IMG/VR virus record: IMGVR_UViG_3300017746_003294
Coordinates: 1 to 31,521 of that record
DNA: 31,521 nt
From: a virus
Strand: one strand, 5' to 3'
Shown: positions 4,932 to 31,521 of the stretch, piece by piece
Layout of the letters: each line of letters begins with the position of its first letter
Position numbering within the stretch: the stretch's first letter is position 1
Notes under the pieces: generated by a model
Seen by the model: only the letters and a program-made list of their open reading frames with translations
Told to the model about the DNA's origin: nothing
Database searches by the model: none
Made by a program: the position numbers and the translations under genes

Positions 4932-5327
4932 ATGGACAAGAAGAAGAGGTTGACATATTTAGCTGATGAGTTGTTAAAGAAGCAGGAGCATGCAGATGCT
5001 TTACGTGATCTTGGAGAGCGTAATCCTGAAGCAGCTAGTTCTATAGAGAATATTCTAGCAGCATTCTCACCTGTAGAAGATCTAATTAAAGTGCGCGACC
5101 ATATTCATAAATTCGAGTCCGTAGTATCTCTGATAAAGGATAACATAAAGAACAGTAAAGGTTATAATAACTTTTCAGAGTCTGAATATGTTCGAGATAA
5201 GAAGAGAGTGTTTGATATTAAGCATAAGGTGTTATCTAGTAATCAAATTGATAAAGAAGACTTAAAAGAAGTAAATAAAATTTATAAGAATCATCTAAAT
5301 ATTCAGAGTATTTTAAAAGGTAAATAG
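4932..5327 (+). CDS. Helical hypothetical protein (131 aa)
   Basis: A 131-aa, lysine/aspartate-rich, predicted all-helical protein with an N-terminal MDKKKRLTYLADELLKKQ. No domain is recognised. The start has a reasonable Shine-Dalgarno sequence (AGGGGA about 5 nt before ATG). It is followed within 16 nt by the next gene, with a late-type element in the gap. Confidence 0.75.
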   Translation: MDKKKRLTYLADELLKKQEHADALRDLGERNPEAASSIENILAAFSPVEDLIKVRDHIHKFESVVSLIKDNIKNSKGYNNFSESEYVRDKKRVFDIKHKVLSSNQIDKEDLKEVNKIYKNHLNIQSILKGK

Positions 5328-5339
5328 ATATTTATAATA
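5328..5339 (+). promoter_or_regulatory. Late-type element L1 (ATATTTATAATA)
   Basis: ATATTTATAATA at 5328-5339, directly after the upstream TAG stop and 4 nt before ATG 5344. The same string precedes 21456 and 25040. No TTG lies 20 nt upstream, which fits a gp55-type promoter that needs only the proximal box. If active it would give an essentially leaderless mRNA. Confidence 0.5.
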
Positions 5340-5343
5340 AGAT

Positions 5344-6027
5344 ATGGGATACAACAAGAAAGAAAATATTGATGATAATTTTAGATTAGATATTGATGAT
5401 ATCTTAGCTGGTAACTCTAAACTAAATCTTTTTGATTACTCTCAAGAAGACTATGATATGTTTGTCAATGGATTTGATACCAAGGCTATTAGAGGTATGA
5501 TGGAAAAGGTTTCTGATATATTAAACGGAAATATATCTTTAGATGATGAAGAGTTGAATGATACAAAAGATGTTAACCGTGTAGAGTATCTAATTAACTA
5601 TATACAATCTCTATCGTCAAGTGATTTAGATCGTTTTGAAACAATGGTCAATAAATTTGATACTAACCCTCACGTGCTTTGGAACATGCTCAATAATGCT
5701 GATAAGGCACTATATAAAAAGCCTGAAATATTTTATAAGTGGTTAGCATCTATTACAGATGAAAAACTCGATCAGTATGTTTATAAAGCAATAGGCGGTA
5801 GCAAACTACATCCAGATGATATGTATCGAAATGAACCTGAAACAAAAGTTGAAATGCTTGATGGGTTTATTGCAATAAGCTCTTCTAATTTAAAAGCACT
5901 CGATATGTTTAGAGATAGAATAATTAAAACACATAATAATAACTGCTCATATGAGCATCGAATAAAAACTCACGATGGTGTCAAGGTACATAGCTATGTG
6001 TTTGATATGAACAACATGAGTGATTAA
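5344..6027 (+). CDS. Hypothetical protein (227 aa)
   Basis: A 227-aa acidic, predicted helical protein with no recognised domain. It contains two aspartate-rich segments near the N-terminus (DDNFRLDIDDILAGN) and repeated short helices (NRVEYLINYIQSLSSSDLDRFETMVNKF; KPEIFYKWLASITDEKLDQYVYKA). There is no Shine-Dalgarno sequence; the ATG sits right after a late-type element. Position alone does not reveal a role. Confidence 0.75.
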   Translation: MGYNKKENIDDNFRLDIDDILAGNSKLNLFDYSQEDYDMFVNGFDTKAIRGMMEKVSDILNGNISLDDEELNDTKDVNRVEYLINYIQSLSSSDLDRFETMVNKFDTNPHVLWNMLNNADKALYKKPEIFYKWLASITDEKLDQYVYKAIGGSKLHPDDMYRNEPETKVEMLDGFIAISSSNLKALDMFRDRIIKTHNNNCSYEHRIKTHDGVKVHSYVFDMNNMSD

Positions 6028-26011: not shown

Positions 26012-26452
26012 ATGAGTCATTGGTTATATGAAGGTAAAAAACTTTTAGAAGCACCGGAAGGTTATTTTGGATTTATTTACTTAATTACAAATTTAAAATC
26101 AGATAAAAAATATATTGGTCGAAAATATTTTGGATCAACTCGTCGTGTTAAAGTTAAAGGTAAAACTAGACGTAAAGTAATACGTAAAGATTCTAACTGG
26201 AAAGATTATACTGGCTCATCTAAAGAGTTAAACAATGATATAAATACTTTAGGTAAGTTGCATTTCCAATTTAAAATTCTTATCTTAGGTAAGACAAAAG
26301 GACAAGTTAATTATTTAGAAGAAAATTTACACCATAGGTTTCATGTCCCATCAAATGACTCATTTTATAATGATTGTATAGGCCCAAGGAGATTTGGGAA
26401 TGTTATAGTTGATGCTGAAGTTAAAAAAATAATAACTGAAATTGTTGGATAG
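26012..26452 (+). CDS. GIY-YIG-like endonuclease (Seg-type)
   Basis: A 146-aa small nuclease-like protein. GFIYLITNLKSDKKYIGRKYF (20-40) is the GIY-YIG signature in the degenerate form found in T4-like phage proteins. A basic block (RRVKVKGKTRRKVIRKDSNWKDYTGSS) and the candidate metal-binding glutamate region NYLEENLHHRFHV (about 99-111) follow, then a final FYNDCIG. Homing (Seg) or repair/resolvase roles are possible. Its position at the border of structural and replication genes would fit an intruding homing nuclease, though nothing shows an interrupted target. It starts 3 nt after the upstream stop. Confidence 0.68.
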   Translation: MSHWLYEGKKLLEAPEGYFGFIYLITNLKSDKKYIGRKYFGSTRRVKVKGKTRRKVIRKDSNWKDYTGSSKELNNDINTLGKLHFQFKILILGKTKGQVNYLEENLHHRFHVPSNDSFYNDCIGPRRFGNVIVDAEVKKIITEIVG

Positions 26453-26478: not shown

Positions 26479-27390
26479 ATGAGTTTAATAAGTTTACTTG
26501 AAACTGTATTAGGTAGGTCTAAGAAGACATCCGGCAATAATATGTCGTTTAAATGTCCTCTATGTAATCATCATAAGCATAAATTAGAAGTTGATCTAAA
26601 TACACAATACTGGCATTGCTGGGTATGTAATGCTAAAGGTAGAAAATTATATATTCTATTTAAAAAAATCGGTGCATCTATAACTCAATTAAAAGATTTA
26701 GCTACACAAACCGATTCATATGTACCTGTAAAGGACATATCACAAACACACGTTTCCCTTCCACAAGAATTTCAGTTAATATTAAACGGTAATAAAACAA
26801 ATCCAGAATTTAGAAATGCTCTTATGTATTTGAAAAATAGAGGTATAACTAGAGAGGATATAGTTAGATATGGTATAGGATATTGCGAATCAGGTCCATA
26901 TGATAAAATGGTTATAATACCTAGTTATGATAAAGATGGTAAATTAAATTTCTTTACTGGTAGGAGTTATTATAAAGATTCAACATTTAAGCACAAAAAT
27001 CCAAAAGTATCAAAAGATATTATTGGGTTTGAATTATTTATAAATTGGAACGAACCTATTACTATAGTTGAAGGAGCTTTTGATGCTATGGCTGTTAAGC
27101 GTAATGCTATACCTTTATTTGGTAAAATAATATTAGATAATCTTAAAAAGAAAATTATTGAGCATAATGTAAAAAATATTTATATTGCATTAGATACGGA
27201 TGCGAGAAAAAAAGCATTGGATATATGTCAGTACTTTATTGATAATGGTGTTAATGTATATTTAATAGAGTTAGGAGATAAAGATCCATCTGATTTAGGT
27301 TACCGTGATATGTTAGATAAAAAGCAAATAACAAATTATATTACAGGCAGTGGGTTAATGTTAAAAAAGTTGGGGAGTATGTTTGAATGA
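26479..27390 (+). CDS. 61: DNA primase, T4 gp61-like
   Basis: A 303-aa DnaG-type primase that makes RNA primers for lagging-strand synthesis, in T4 as part of the gp41/gp61 primosome. An N-terminal zinc-binding domain has C26-x2-C29 and C47-x2-C50 (CPLCNHHKHKLEVDLNTQYWHCWVC). The Toprim-type core shows ITIVEGAFDAMAVKR (about 193-207, catalytic Glu) and IYIALDTDARKKAL (about 234-247, DxD). The length is close to T4 gp61 (342 aa). The helicase gp41 is not in this window. It shares ATGA with the downstream nuclease gene, so both are cotranslated. The start lies directly at promoter P7, implying a leaderless mRNA. Confidence 0.88.
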   Translation: MSLISLLETVLGRSKKTSGNNMSFKCPLCNHHKHKLEVDLNTQYWHCWVCNAKGRKLYILFKKIGASITQLKDLATQTDSYVPVKDISQTHVSLPQEFQLILNGNKTNPEFRNALMYLKNRGITREDIVRYGIGYCESGPYDKMVIIPSYDKDGKLNFFTGRSYYKDSTFKHKNPKVSKDIIGFELFINWNEPITIVEGAFDAMAVKRNAIPLFGKIILDNLKKKIIEHNVKNIYIALDTDARKKALDICQYFIDNGVNVYLIELGDKDPSDLGYRDMLDKKQITNYITGSGLMLKKLGSMFE

Positions 27391-30300
27391 TACAAACAGT
27401 TGATGTAGGGATAAGCCAAGTAGATAAAATACTGCATGTTGCAGATATACATATAAGAAATTATCAGAGGCATAGAGAGTATAGAGAGGTATTTAAGCAT
27501 TTATATAAAGCAGCTAAAGAACTGCCTGAAAATAGTTTAATTTATGTTGCTGGTGATATAGTACATAATAAAACCGATATATCACCTGAGTTAATAGCTA
27601 TAACTTCTGAGTTTTTTAAGAACTTAGCTGATATTAGACCTACTATTGTTATTACAGGTAATCACGATACTAACTTAAATAACACTAGTAGACTAGATGC
27701 ACTAACACCTATAATTAATAATATTAATCACAGTAACTTATTTTATCTAAAAGATTCTGGTGTTTATAAATTTGCAAATATTCACTTTACAGTATTTAGT
27801 ATTTTTGATCACCCATCTACTTTTATTAAAGCAAGCACGTTTCAAGCAGATACAAAAATAGCATTATTTCACGGTCCTGTCAAATCATCTAAAACCGACA
27901 TAGGGTATGAAGTTACAGGAGATGAATATACAGCTGATTTATTTAATGGTTATGACTTATCGCTGCTAGGCGACATTCATAAACGTCAATATGTAGATAA
28001 AGAAAAAACTATATGTTATCCTGGGTCGCTTATCCAACAAAACTTTGGTGAAGCTTTTAAACATCATGGGTACGCTATTTGGGATGTTAACACCCGTAAG
28101 CCTAAATATACTGATATACCTAATAATTATGGATTTTATACAATAGATATTAAAGATGGTGTGTTACCTAATATTGACGATATACCAAAGTATCCAAGAC
28201 TACGATTGCGCACAAAAAACACAACTGAAGCAGAAGTTAAAACTTTATTAAAAGATATAAAGAAAAAGTGTAGAGCTAACGATGTAGTAATTATAAAGCA
28301 AGATAAGATAAAAGGTCAAGCTTCTACATCTAGAACTTTAACGAGAGATGTTCGCGATATTAATTATCAAAATAAATTATTAAAAGAATATATAGACAAG
28401 AATCATGATATTGATAATACCATGATGAGTCAAATTAGAAATATAAATAAAACTTTAAATAGTCAATTACAAAACGAAGATATAACTAGATCAGTAACAT
28501 GGAAATTAAAAACATTTGAATTTTCTAATATGTTTAGTTATGGGGATGGTAACTCTATAAACTTTTCAAAAGCTAAAGATGTAGTTGGGCTTTTTGCTCC
28601 TAACCATGCAGGTAAATCTGCTATACTTGATTCTGTATGTTTTTGTATATTTGATAGATGTAGTAGAGGTAAGTTAGCTACAGATATTATGAATAATAAG
28701 AAACATAATTTTCATTGTAAATTAAATTTTGAAATTGATGGTACTGATTACTATATTGAAAGGAAAGCTAAGCGAATAAGTAAAGGCTGGATGAAAGGTA
28801 AAGTTAGAGTAGATGTTGATTTTTGGTATGTAGATGAAGATGGTAATAACATATCTCTAAATGGTGAGCAACGTAGAGAAACAGATAAAAACATTCAGGG
28901 CTACCTAGGCCAGTATGATGATTTTGTTTTAACTGCTCTATCAGTTCAAAATAATAATACAGGTTTTATAGATAAATCACAATTTGAAAAAAAAGACTTA
29001 TTATCACAATTTTTAGATATAACAGTATTTGAAGAGTTGTATAGTTTAGCAAATGAAGAGATAAGAGATGTACAAGCTTTACTAAAAGATTTTGGTAGTA
29101 CCGATTACTCACAACAATTAGCTGATGCTGAAGAACAGTTAGATGGAGATCAAGAACACTATAAAGAATATCAAGAACAGAAAACTTTAATTGAAAAGCA
29201 AATAAAATCTATACAAAAACAGGTACTAGCTAAAACTAAATCTTTACATAAGCGTATACCTTTAGATAATATTAGTTCACTAGAACTAGAACTGATAGGG
29301 TTAAATAATCAAATAAAAATAATAAATACAAGACTGCAATCAGATGAAAAGATAGCTAATAGCAATAAAGAAAAAATTAAAAAAGCTAATAAAGTTTTAT
29401 CTAGTTATGATTGTGATAGTGTAAATAAACAATATAATAAATTTAATGAAACTAAAACTAAGATATTTCAATTAGAAGAATCTAGAGAGCGGTTAAAAAT
29501 GGAAGTAACACATAAGCTAGATAAATTAAAAGCTATTGGTCAATTTGATCCAAAATGTGACTTTTGTAAAAATACCCCTTTTATTCAAAATGCATTTAAA
29601 TTAGAAAAGGAATTAGAAGAAGATAAAATAAAGTCTAATAATCTTCTTGAAGAATTAGGAGTACATAATTTATTTATTGAAACTAACTCTACTACTATTG
29701 ATGATTATAATAATATAGAAAAATTAAATTCTTTATTATTACAAATTGAAAGAGAGCGGAATACAGGAAGAATAGCCTATTATCAAGCTAAAGAAAAACG
29801 AGACGGGTTTCAGAGTAAAGTTAACGAAATAAATAAAAAAGTAAAAGATTATCATAATAATATACAATCTATAAAAGAAAATAAAATTATAAATTCTAAG
29901 ATTATTGAACTTAGTAATTCTGAGAGTGGCTTACAGTTAGAGTTAAACGACATTTTATCAAAATGTCAATTATGTTATAGTAATATTAAAGTGCATAAAT
30001 CTCAAATTAAAAATATAAATGCTCAAATTAAAAAAGCGCATACCCTTGAAACAAAATTAAAAGCATATGAATATTATCTTGATGCTATTCAAAGAGATGG
30101 AATACCATATGAAATAATATCAGACACTCTACCATATATAGAAGAAGAAATAAATAATATATTATCACAAATAGTAGATTTCAAATTATTATTTGATGTA
30201 GATGGTAAAAACATATTGACATATATTAAGTATGGTGATGATAATCAATGGCCTTTAGAAATGACATCCGGTATGGAGAAATTTATTAGTTCACTTGCAA

Positions 30301-30536
30301 TTAGAGTAGCATTAATTAATATATCAAGTCTACCCCGTCCTACTTTTCTAGCTATTGATGAAGGGTTTGGTAATCTTGATACAAATAATATAAATTCAAT
30401 AGCTATGTTATTTGACTACCTAAAACTACAATTTGATTTTATATTAATAATATCGCATATCGATATAATGCGTGATATGGTTGATGGTACAATTGAGATC
30501 AACAGAACAAATAACATAAGTAACGTTATTTATTAA
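27387..30536 (+). CDS. Fused SbcD-SbcC (gp47-gp46) recombination nuclease
   Basis: A single 1049-aa ORF holds both subunits of the Mre11-Rad50-type nuclease that T4 encodes as separate genes 47 and 46. Residues 1-~345 are the calcineurin-like phosphoesterase: D20-x-H22, GD 56-57, GNHD 91-94, FHG 161-163, GDIH 195-198. Residues ~370-1049 are the SbcC/Rad50-like ATPase. The P-loop region is APNHAGKS (404-411, Ala instead of the first Gly), and the coiled coil carries the zinc-hook CDFC (724-727). The signature is MTSGMEKFISSLAIR (from about 959), and Walker B is FLAIDEG (987-993). It would resect DNA ends for recombination-dependent replication. No stop or ribosome-binding site separates the halves. 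Confidence 0.92.
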   Translation: MIQTVDVGISQVDKILHVADIHIRNYQRHREYREVFKHLYKAAKELPENSLIYVAGDIVHNKTDISPELIAITSEFFKNLADIRPTIVITGNHDTNLNNTSRLDALTPIINNINHSNLFYLKDSGVYKFANIHFTVFSIFDHPSTFIKASTFQADTKIALFHGPVKSSKTDIGYEVTGDEYTADLFNGYDLSLLGDIHKRQYVDKEKTICYPGSLIQQNFGEAFKHHGYAIWDVNTRKPKYTDIPNNYGFYTIDIKDGVLPNIDDIPKYPRLRLRTKNTTEAEVKTLLKDIKKKCRANDVVIIKQDKIKGQASTSRTLTRDVRDINYQNKLLKEYIDKNHDIDNTMMSQIRNINKTLNSQLQNEDITRSVTWKLKTFEFSNMFSYGDGNSINFSKAKDVVGLFAPNHAGKSAILDSVCFCIFDRCSRGKLATDIMNNKKHNFHCKLNFEIDGTDYYIERKAKRISKGWMKGKVRVDVDFWYVDEDGNNISLNGEQRRETDKNIQGYLGQYDDFVLTALSVQNNNTGFIDKSQFEKKDLLSQFLDITVFEELYSLANEEIRDVQALLKDFGSTDYSQQLADAEEQLDGDQEHYKEYQEQKTLIEKQIKSIQKQVLAKTKSLHKRIPLDNISSLELELIGLNNQIKIINTRLQSDEKIANSNKEKIKKANKVLSSYDCDSVNKQYNKFNETKTKIFQLEESRERLKMEVTHKLDKLKAIGQFDPKCDFCKNTPFIQNAFKLEKELEEDKIKSNNLLEELGVHNLFIETNSTTIDDYNNIEKLNSLLLQIERERNTGRIAYYQAKEKRDGFQSKVNEINKKVKDYHNNIQSIKENKIINSKIIELSNSESGLQLELNDILSKCQLCYSNIKVHKSQIKNINAQIKKAHTLETKLKAYEYYLDAIQRDGIPYEIISDTLPYIEEEINNILSQIVDFKLLFDVDGKNILTYIKYGDDNQWPLEMTSGMEKFISSLAIRVALINISSLPRPTFLAIDEGFGNLDTNNINSIAMLFDYLKLQFDFILIISHIDIMRDMVDGTIEINRTNNISNVIY

Positions 30537-30595: not shown

Positions 30596-31521
30596 ATGCA
30601 AAAACGCCGAGTTGGTAAACTTAACCCATTATTTAATGAGACAGTATTAATTAATGAGAAGCAGTTTGAATCAGAATATTTTAGAGTCAGTGATGTACCT
30701 TCTGAATTAACATCTGGTAAAAATATGTTTAAGTTGTATGGTAATTCTGAGCTTCTTAAAATGAACACACCACTACTTATACAGGTTACTGATATTAATA
30801 AAAATCCAGTTTATCACCATGTAAATAAATTTGTAGATGAAACGGGTCGTATTGTAATTGGTGTATGGCTATACCCTGACACACCACCAGGGCTAGGTAA
30901 GATTGAGCTCTTAGGTGTTGCAACGCGTAGACAAGATGGGCGAGAGGTTCCAACAAACTGGAAAGATAGTTACAATGTTAAGTGGCAACGTGAATTAATG
31001 CTAAACCCTTTTGTAGATAACACAACACCAATAGTATTTCAAACAATACCTAATATACAAGTAAAAGAGAAAGTAAGAACATATTTAGCAGGTACTTATG
31101 AAAATACATCAACAAGTGTGGTTACACAGACAGGGACTGGAACTTACTCTTATGGTGGAGGTGCTGCATCTACATTTACTTTAACTGATACCATTTTTTC
31201 ATCTTCAGCAGTTGTTAACTCAACTATTATAATAACTCCTCCAGCTAATACTAATTTGTGGCTTCCTGGAGAGATATCTTTAGATCCTAATGCATCAGAT
31301 GATGGTATACCGTTAGTATCTTTTTTACTTGAAAATGGGCTTCAAAATAACACTACTGCAGAAATAGCGGATATATGGACAGTACCTATTGTAACTAATC
31401 AACAGTCTGCAGGAACCACCGTTGGTAAAACTTATGTACCAGGTGTATGGACTTCTGTACCATCTAACTTTACACCTTTTGTTATTAACAACTGTACATA
31501 CAGTTTAGAATTTCAACAAGA
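30596..31521 (+). CDS. Virion structural protein, cut by window end
   Basis: ATG 30596 follows GGAGA at good spacing and opens a frame of at least 308 codons that runs off the right edge. The N-terminus MQKRRVGKLNPLFNETVLIN leads to FRVSDVPSELTSGKNMFKLYGN, a VTDINKNPVYHHVNKFVDETGRIVIGVWLYPDTPPGLGKIELLGVA block, and IPNIQVKEKVRTYLAGTYENTSTS. A Ser/Thr/Asn-rich region follows. The Ig-like layout and composition fit a tail or baseplate structural protein of large Bacteroidota or marine phages, but I cannot name it. It begins a new late unit after the replication genes. Confidence 0.72.
   Translation, partial: MQKRRVGKLNPLFNETVLINEKQFESEYFRVSDVPSELTSGKNMFKLYGNSELLKMNTPLLIQVTDINKNPVYHHVNKFVDETGRIVIGVWLYPDTPPGLGKIELLGVATRRQDGREVPTNWKDSYNVKWQRELMLNPFVDNTTPIVFQTIPNIQVKEKVRTYLAGTYENTSTSVVTQTGTGTYSYGGGAASTFTLTDTIFSSSAVVNSTIIITPPANTNLWLPGEISLDPNASDDGIPLVSFLLENGLQNNTTAEIADIWTVPIVTNQQSAGTTVGKTYVPGVWTSVPSNFTPFVINNCTYSLEFQQ

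Follow-up and report, generated by a model that had tools for sequence, protein, structure and literature searches.

In E. coli SbcCD and in the archaeal and T. maritima Mre11-Rad50 complexes, nuclease and ATPase are two separate chains, and the same enzyme is encoded by two genes in the T4-type (gp47/gp46), T5-type (D12/D13) and SPO1/Twort (exonuclease A/B) phage systems. The established role of T4 gp46/gp47 is DNA-end resection for recombination-dependent replication (PMC3175470). A fused form has been known in kind since 2011, when Mimivirus R555 and twelve other Mre11/Rad50 fusions from a Bacillus phage, bacteria and eukaryotes were described; these have His as the last residue of the GDxxD motif and Asp in place of His206, and their tether was estimated at 9-12 residues from a 28 A gap in the T. 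maritima complex (PMC3175470). The same paper argued that phages may have contributed some of the abundant R555-like reads of aquatic viral metagenomes, and noted that some scaffolds carry phage primases. Here we describe such a gene in the IMG/VR virus record IMGVR_UViG_3300017746_003294, a metagenomic sequence of 31,521 bases that is probably a genome fragment and was analysed over its whole length (the window). The open reading frame (ORF) at positions 27387-30536 encodes one protein in which a whole Mre11/SbcD nuclease precedes a whole Rad50/SbcC ATPase. Very probably this protein is a single-polypeptide version of the phage DNA-end nuclease Mre11-Rad50 (SbcCD, T4 gp47/gp46-type), and the gene fits the suggestion of phage relatives made in PMC3175470.

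The ORF starts with ATG and runs without an internal stop for 1049 amino acids (aa), and both of its halves were recognised by several profile collections (Table 1). Pfam Metallophos (PF00149) matched residues 14-199 (E 5.9e-13) and AAA_23 residues 380-607 (E 6.3e-12), while SbcC_Walker_B at 959-1009 (0.0023) stayed below the cut-off. The SbcD-like PHROG family phrog_100 spans residues 12-350 (2.4e-31) and the SbcC-like phrog_77 residues 284-1049 (1.6e-48). The NCBIfam models TIGR00619 (sbcd, residues 14-96) and TIGR00618 (sbcc, residues 950-1047) both fell short of their curated cut-offs, as would be expected of a phage protein that has diverged. A profile of the fusion family matched solved SbcC, Rad50 and Mre11 proteins; Rad50 structures were matched over residues 839-1049, and residues 189-360 matched T. 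maritima Mre11 (3qg5_C, 203-376), reaching into its Rad50-binding helix-loop-helix (HLH). The natural fusion that an earlier note had read from the window sequence alone is thus borne out, with a chance resemblance ruled out, and, since both subunits share one polypeptide, the 1:1 stoichiometry proposed there is indeed fixed.

The motifs named in the earlier note (D20xH22, GD56-57, GNHD 91-94, GDIH 195-198, the hook cysteines C724/C727, the signature at 961-966 and Walker B at 987-992) are all present. Conservation was assessed in an alignment of 116 full-length sequences including the window protein. In the nuclease half, D20, G56/D57, N92/H93, H162 and D196/H198 are invariant in 116 of 116, and the metal motifs of the calcineurin-like phosphoesterase family, DxH, GDxx(D/H), GNH(D/E), a single H and GxxH, are found both by the PF00149 match and in this alignment. 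In the ATPase half, G409/K410, C724/C727, S961-E964, D991/E992 and H1024 are equally invariant, and every part of a split ABC ATPase is present, namely Walker A, Q-loop, signature (as the variant SGME), Walker B, D-loop and H-switch.

Some sequence features weigh against the proposed enzyme, as does one aspect of the structural model discussed below. The canonical last metal motif GHxH is replaced by GDIH in all 116 fused sequences, which places an Asp where P. furiosus Mre11 has the metal ligand His206; H22 is replaced by Gln in 20 of the 116; and the signature reads SGME, not SGGE. E. coli SbcCD and the archaeal and T. maritima enzymes read GHxH and SGGE, although fold, motifs, HLH and zinc hook are common to them and the window fusion. 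GHxH and SGGE were also seen in the sequence L130. The Asp and the Gln could be taken to mean that nuclease function is gone and that the fused protein serves as a DNA bridge of the structural maintenance of chromosomes (SMC) type, but we consider this very improbable, because D20, D57, N92, H93, H162 and H198 are invariant in the 116 sequences, Mimivirus R555 carries the same Asp in its last metal motif (PMC3175470), and a GDLH motif is found in Providencia phage PSTCR5, whose SbcD-like protein is separate. GDIH is therefore a variant within the Mre11-Rad50/SbcCD family, and with the Asp and the H22 substitution the exo- and endonuclease activities of these DNA-end nucleases may differ.

The structure of the fusion protein was predicted by AlphaFold2 from a 60-sequence alignment (mean predicted local distance difference test score, pLDDT, 82.9; predicted template modelling score, pTM, 0.45, with a long coiled coil). 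The model gives the domain order phosphoesterase, cap, HLH, tether, ATPase lobe, coil and ATPase lobe; at this pTM the placement of the nuclease relative to the ATPase head is tentative, which also weighs against the proposed enzyme. Residues 325-360 are predicted to be the Mre11 HLH that binds Rad50. The charged linker of 25-30 residues that the earlier note had placed at about 340-370 is consequently not upheld: by the AlphaFold2 model and the 3qg5_C profile match most of it is the second HLH helix, and the tether comprises only about 10 residues (361-370), in agreement with the 9-12 estimated in PMC3175470. A second CxxC (CQLC, residues 860-863, window 29964-29975) lies in the descending coil. 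It occurs only in close relatives such as L005 and is absent in L011, and it was ruled out as the zinc hook.

Among solved folds, the top matches include Mre11-Rad50 complexes, E. coli SbcCD and other SMC proteins. The top viral matches carry DNA repair annotations and come from giant viruses and jumbo phages, such as Tupanvirus (26% identity over 1316 columns), Harvfovirus, Catovirus, pT24 and PTm1. The SMC-nuclease defence systems JetABCD and Lamassu appear among the lower fold matches, which could suggest a phage defence or anti-defence protein instead of a replication and recombination enzyme. This reading is even less probable than that of a DNA bridge, since the sequence, the HLH, the zinc hook and the top sequence matches are specifically those of Mre11-Rad50, and the gene is linked to a primase and conserved across the clade like a core gene.

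How the fused DNA-end nuclease works, from the pairing of its chains through its metal and ATP chemistry to the part it plays in replication, is inferred. Two fusion chains would most likely pair as the usual M2R2 assembly, in which the nuclease domains dimerise, each HLH seats on the root of the Rad50 coil and the coiled coils join at their CxxC zinc hooks. ATP binding would shut the Rad50 heads and restrain the nuclease; ATP hydrolysis would open them, and the nuclease could then cut DNA ends, leaving 3' single-stranded DNA to serve strand invasion and recombination-dependent phage replication.

A search with the window protein alone found five contigs carrying the same ORF at 79-82% identity. 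Scanning IMG/VR with two alignments, A1 and A2, gave 572 and 466 relatives, respectively, and the best 80 were kept from each. Nuclease and ATPase signals lie in one ORF in 125 of the 125 loci of these scans, and a full-length, uninterrupted fusion was present in 116 of them (window included); most of the others reach a contig end, in L122 a stop or frameshift falls late within the ATPase half, and in L003 another ORF interrupts the gene. None of the 125 loci has SbcD and SbcC as separate genes meeting at this boundary, which the earlier note had named as a refuting case; they are a set picked by whole-protein score that favours whole-length matches and has no bearing on the frequency of two-gene relatives. 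In a large group of environmental phages, a single-ORF fusion is what is normally found. Cellular and plasmid relatives amounted to one weak plasmid match and two contigs of metagenome-assembled genomes (MAGs). L127, a contig of a Bacteroidales MAG, carries a 277-aa SbcD-like ORF (5004-5837) that reads GHIH and has a primase gene upstream; SbcC was not found within 5 kb downstream of it. In the 484-kb phage LR756508 (L003, 5980-10205) a 305-aa ORF breaks up the fused gene near residue 205; this ORF has zinc-finger-like repeats and a domain resembling the TnsA nuclease (PF08722, 5.8e-6). A self-splicing intron in the fused gene was rejected, as no Rfam match rose above noise.

That an assembly or sequencing artefact joined two neighbouring genes through a lost stop or frameshift, as might be feared for a 31.5-kb metagenomic virus fragment, has practically no chance of being right, since the same unbroken ORF (1035-1202 aa) occurs in 116 full-length sequences including the cultured Microcystis phage Mel-JY01, residues 361-371 are 91-100% identical to those of L005 and L008 although their codons differ at 55-64% of third positions, which shows that the junction is translated and selected as protein, and the ATG codons close to it (residues 346, 347 and 382) have no preceding ribosome-binding site, which also rules out an internal start yielding a separate SbcC. 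The lost stop or start at the junction, which the earlier note had named as another refuting case, was thus not found.

The earlier note had left open whether such fusions were already catalogued. They are, in PMC3175470, and both domains also lie in one polypeptide in phages Mel-JY01, PTm1, pT24, PAU and MA9V-1. Like the R555-type fusions, the window protein joins an Mre11-like N-terminus to a Rad50-like C-terminus in one ORF with a short tether, keeps the HLH, and has Asp for His206 and His as the last residue of GDxxD; compared through the description in PMC3175470, R555 is a 1351-aa protein of a giant virus, whereas the window protein has 1049 aa and belongs to a tailed phage. The fusion of Microcystis phage Mel-JY01 (WWT39521.1, annotated merely as 'AAA domain containing protein') is 41% identical over 99% of the window protein. 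GIY-YIG and primase genes lie upstream of it as in the window, but a 57-aa ORF separates primase and fusion and a DNA methylase follows. Both halves are likewise in one ORF in the jumbo phages Tenacibaculum PTm1 and pT24, Sphingomonas PAU (gp288), Chryseobacterium MA9V-1 and the uncultured 735-kb LR756501, which differ in their size (1202-1326 aa), longer coils and weak sequence similarity to the window protein (25-29% identity for LR756501). In GenBank, the fusions of Mel-JY01, PTm1, PTm5, pT24, PAU and MA9V-1 stand under uninformative names, and MA9V-2 has a homologous gene. The T4-, T5- and SPO1/Twort-type proteins share the motifs of the window fusion but appear to branch outside the fused group.

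A primase gene lies upstream of the fusion in nearly all relatives. In the window the two genes overlap (Table 1) and a ribosome-binding-like GGGGAG stretch precedes the fusion start codon; judged from this arrangement, the fusion gene is probably translationally coupled to the primase. Promoter and terminator scans around the fusion gene showed no excess over shuffled sequence. Upstream of the primase, positions 26012-26452 encode a GIY-YIG endonuclease (Pfam SegE_GIY-YIG, 2.2e-30), which is retained in close relatives and missing from many distant ones. Downstream, an ORF of 308 aa (30596-31519) is open at the contig end; in position and start it resembles a 677-683 aa gene found downstream in L005, L006, L008 and L009.

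The most unusual material is found among the distant relatives, in a clade apparently re-split in the cap domain and in phages with putative split inteins in the P-loop. A scan with the nuclease half alone scored 76 loci (75 viral and L127), some on contigs seen before. In 52 of them the phosphoesterase shares an ORF with at least a portion of the ATPase, and in 24 it has an ORF to itself, of about 260-277 aa; a 190-aa fragment in L160 matches both halves. The intact separate-ORF loci have a second ORF of about 780-799 aa roughly 0.3-2.2 kb further on, beyond some small genes. Over its first 120 residues this second ORF aligns with the latter half of the Mre11 cap plus the HLH of the fusions (hhalign probability 97%, E 1.1e-10) and, where read, this stretch precedes the Rad50 part; the two-gene SbcC proteins compared have no such start. 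In the nuclease-domain tree the separate-ORF proteins form one clade (98/88) that is nested among the fused ones and has the LR756501/PTm1/PAU group as its sister (98/96). No bootstrap tree keeps all fused proteins together; monophyly of the strictly fused proteins is not the best tree, although the approximately unbiased (AU) test does not reject it (p = 0.133). Fused and re-split sequences stand apart from five two-gene sequences (95/91), with few outgroups and long branches. As the separate ORFs break inside the cap domain and not at the fusion junction, they appear to derive from a fused ancestor by re-splitting within the Mre11 cap.

In L144-L146 the fused ORF terminates within the Rad50 Walker A motif as ...GENQVGK/CVHP.TKINI.... 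In L145 and L146 a second ORF about 4-5 kb away starts with an intein-like stretch ending ...EYYANNIAVHN/SNILNSITYGLYG (after ...YYANNIAVHN it continues as SNILNS), and joining the two would restore the P-loop; genes on both strands sit between them. In L153, L160, L165 and L175 the cap/HLH-SbcC gene is broken at the same P-loop lysine, with an N-terminal intein half of about 27-30 aa and a C-terminal half of roughly 120 aa. In L153, L160 and L175 the two halves flank an ORF of 339-352 aa that may encode a homing endonuclease. The model of the intein C-terminal splicing region (TIGR01443) matched the L160 half at 25.0 bits against a cut-off of 15.6 (E 1.6e-5), and Pfam Intein_splicing stayed below its cut-off. 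From these sequence features the breaks are apparent split inteins, for which trans-splicing is predicted. In the part of the literature that was searched, no report combining split inteins, phage and SbcC was found, and, judged by their titles, papers that mention inteins, phage and Rad50 do not seem to describe such a case.

Table 1. Features of the fusion locus in the window and of the re-split and intein-broken relatives
Feature	Location	Strand	Details
SbcD-SbcC (Mre11-Rad50) fusion gene	27387..30536	+	1049 aa; ORF, Pfam, PHROG, motif alignment
Mre11/SbcD calcineurin-like phosphoesterase domain (~residues 1-245)	27387..28121	+	PF00149 14-199; motif invariance
Phosphoesterase motifs	27387..28121	+	DxH 20-22, GDxxH 56-60, GNHD 91-94, H162, GDIH 195-198
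Mre11 capping domain (~residues 246-306)	28122..28304	+	3qg5_C profile match; predicted strand-helix-strand 269-304
Flexible cap-to-HLH loop (residues 307-318)	28305..28340	+	sole segment with pLDDT below 50
Predicted Mre11 HLH, Rad50-binding (325-360)	28359..28466	+	predicted helices 325-339, 344-360; 3qg5_C match reaches 360
Fusion tether, ~10 residues (361-370)	28467..28496	+	predicted coil, HLH to first Rad50 strand (371); junction conservation
Rad50/SbcC N-lobe	28497..29021	+	Walker A APNHAGKS 404-411 (28596-28619), Q521; AAA_23, alignment, AlphaFold2
Rad50 coiled coil (546-901)	29022..30089	+	zinc hook CDFC 724-727 (29556-29567); predicted long helices, Cys invariance
Rad50/SbcC C-lobe	30090..30533	+	signature SGMEKF 961-966, Walker B/D-loop 987-998, H-switch H1024; alignment, Rad50 profile match
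DNA primase gene, directly upstream	26479..27390	+	phrog_47 4.8e-43; TGA overlaps fusion ATG (ATGA)
Apparent re-split loci	L147-L150, L152, L154, L161, L162, L166, L170, L171, L177-L179, L203, L208, L209, L211		260-275 aa nuclease ORF + 780-799 aa ORF
Apparent Walker A split intein	L144 6001-7338		first ORF
Apparent Walker A split intein	L145 6001-7338 and 12245-13102		two ORFs
Apparent Walker A split intein	L146 6001-7338 and 11314-13104		two ORFs
Second set of putative P-loop split inteins	L153 8371-12268; L160 7475-11784; L165 7006-9906; L175 8489-12427

We somewhat favour the view that the SbcDC fusion is an old, stable state in phages that was later re-split in the cap, leaving the HLH on the Rad50 chain, and that separately acquired split inteins in its P-loop, so that an active ATPase would need trans-splicing. 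If this is true, the covalent link between nuclease and ATPase would be dispensable once the HLH-Rad50 contact is intramolecular. The window gene and its relatives provide full-length phage examples of what in 2011 was mostly inferred from short marine reads, and they show that a large phage clade normally carries the enzyme in fused form. With stoichiometry and the Mre11-Rad50 contact already fixed in one chain of about 1050 aa, the protein lends itself to structural work, and the re-split and intein-broken relatives make it possible to test directly which of its covalent links the enzyme needs.

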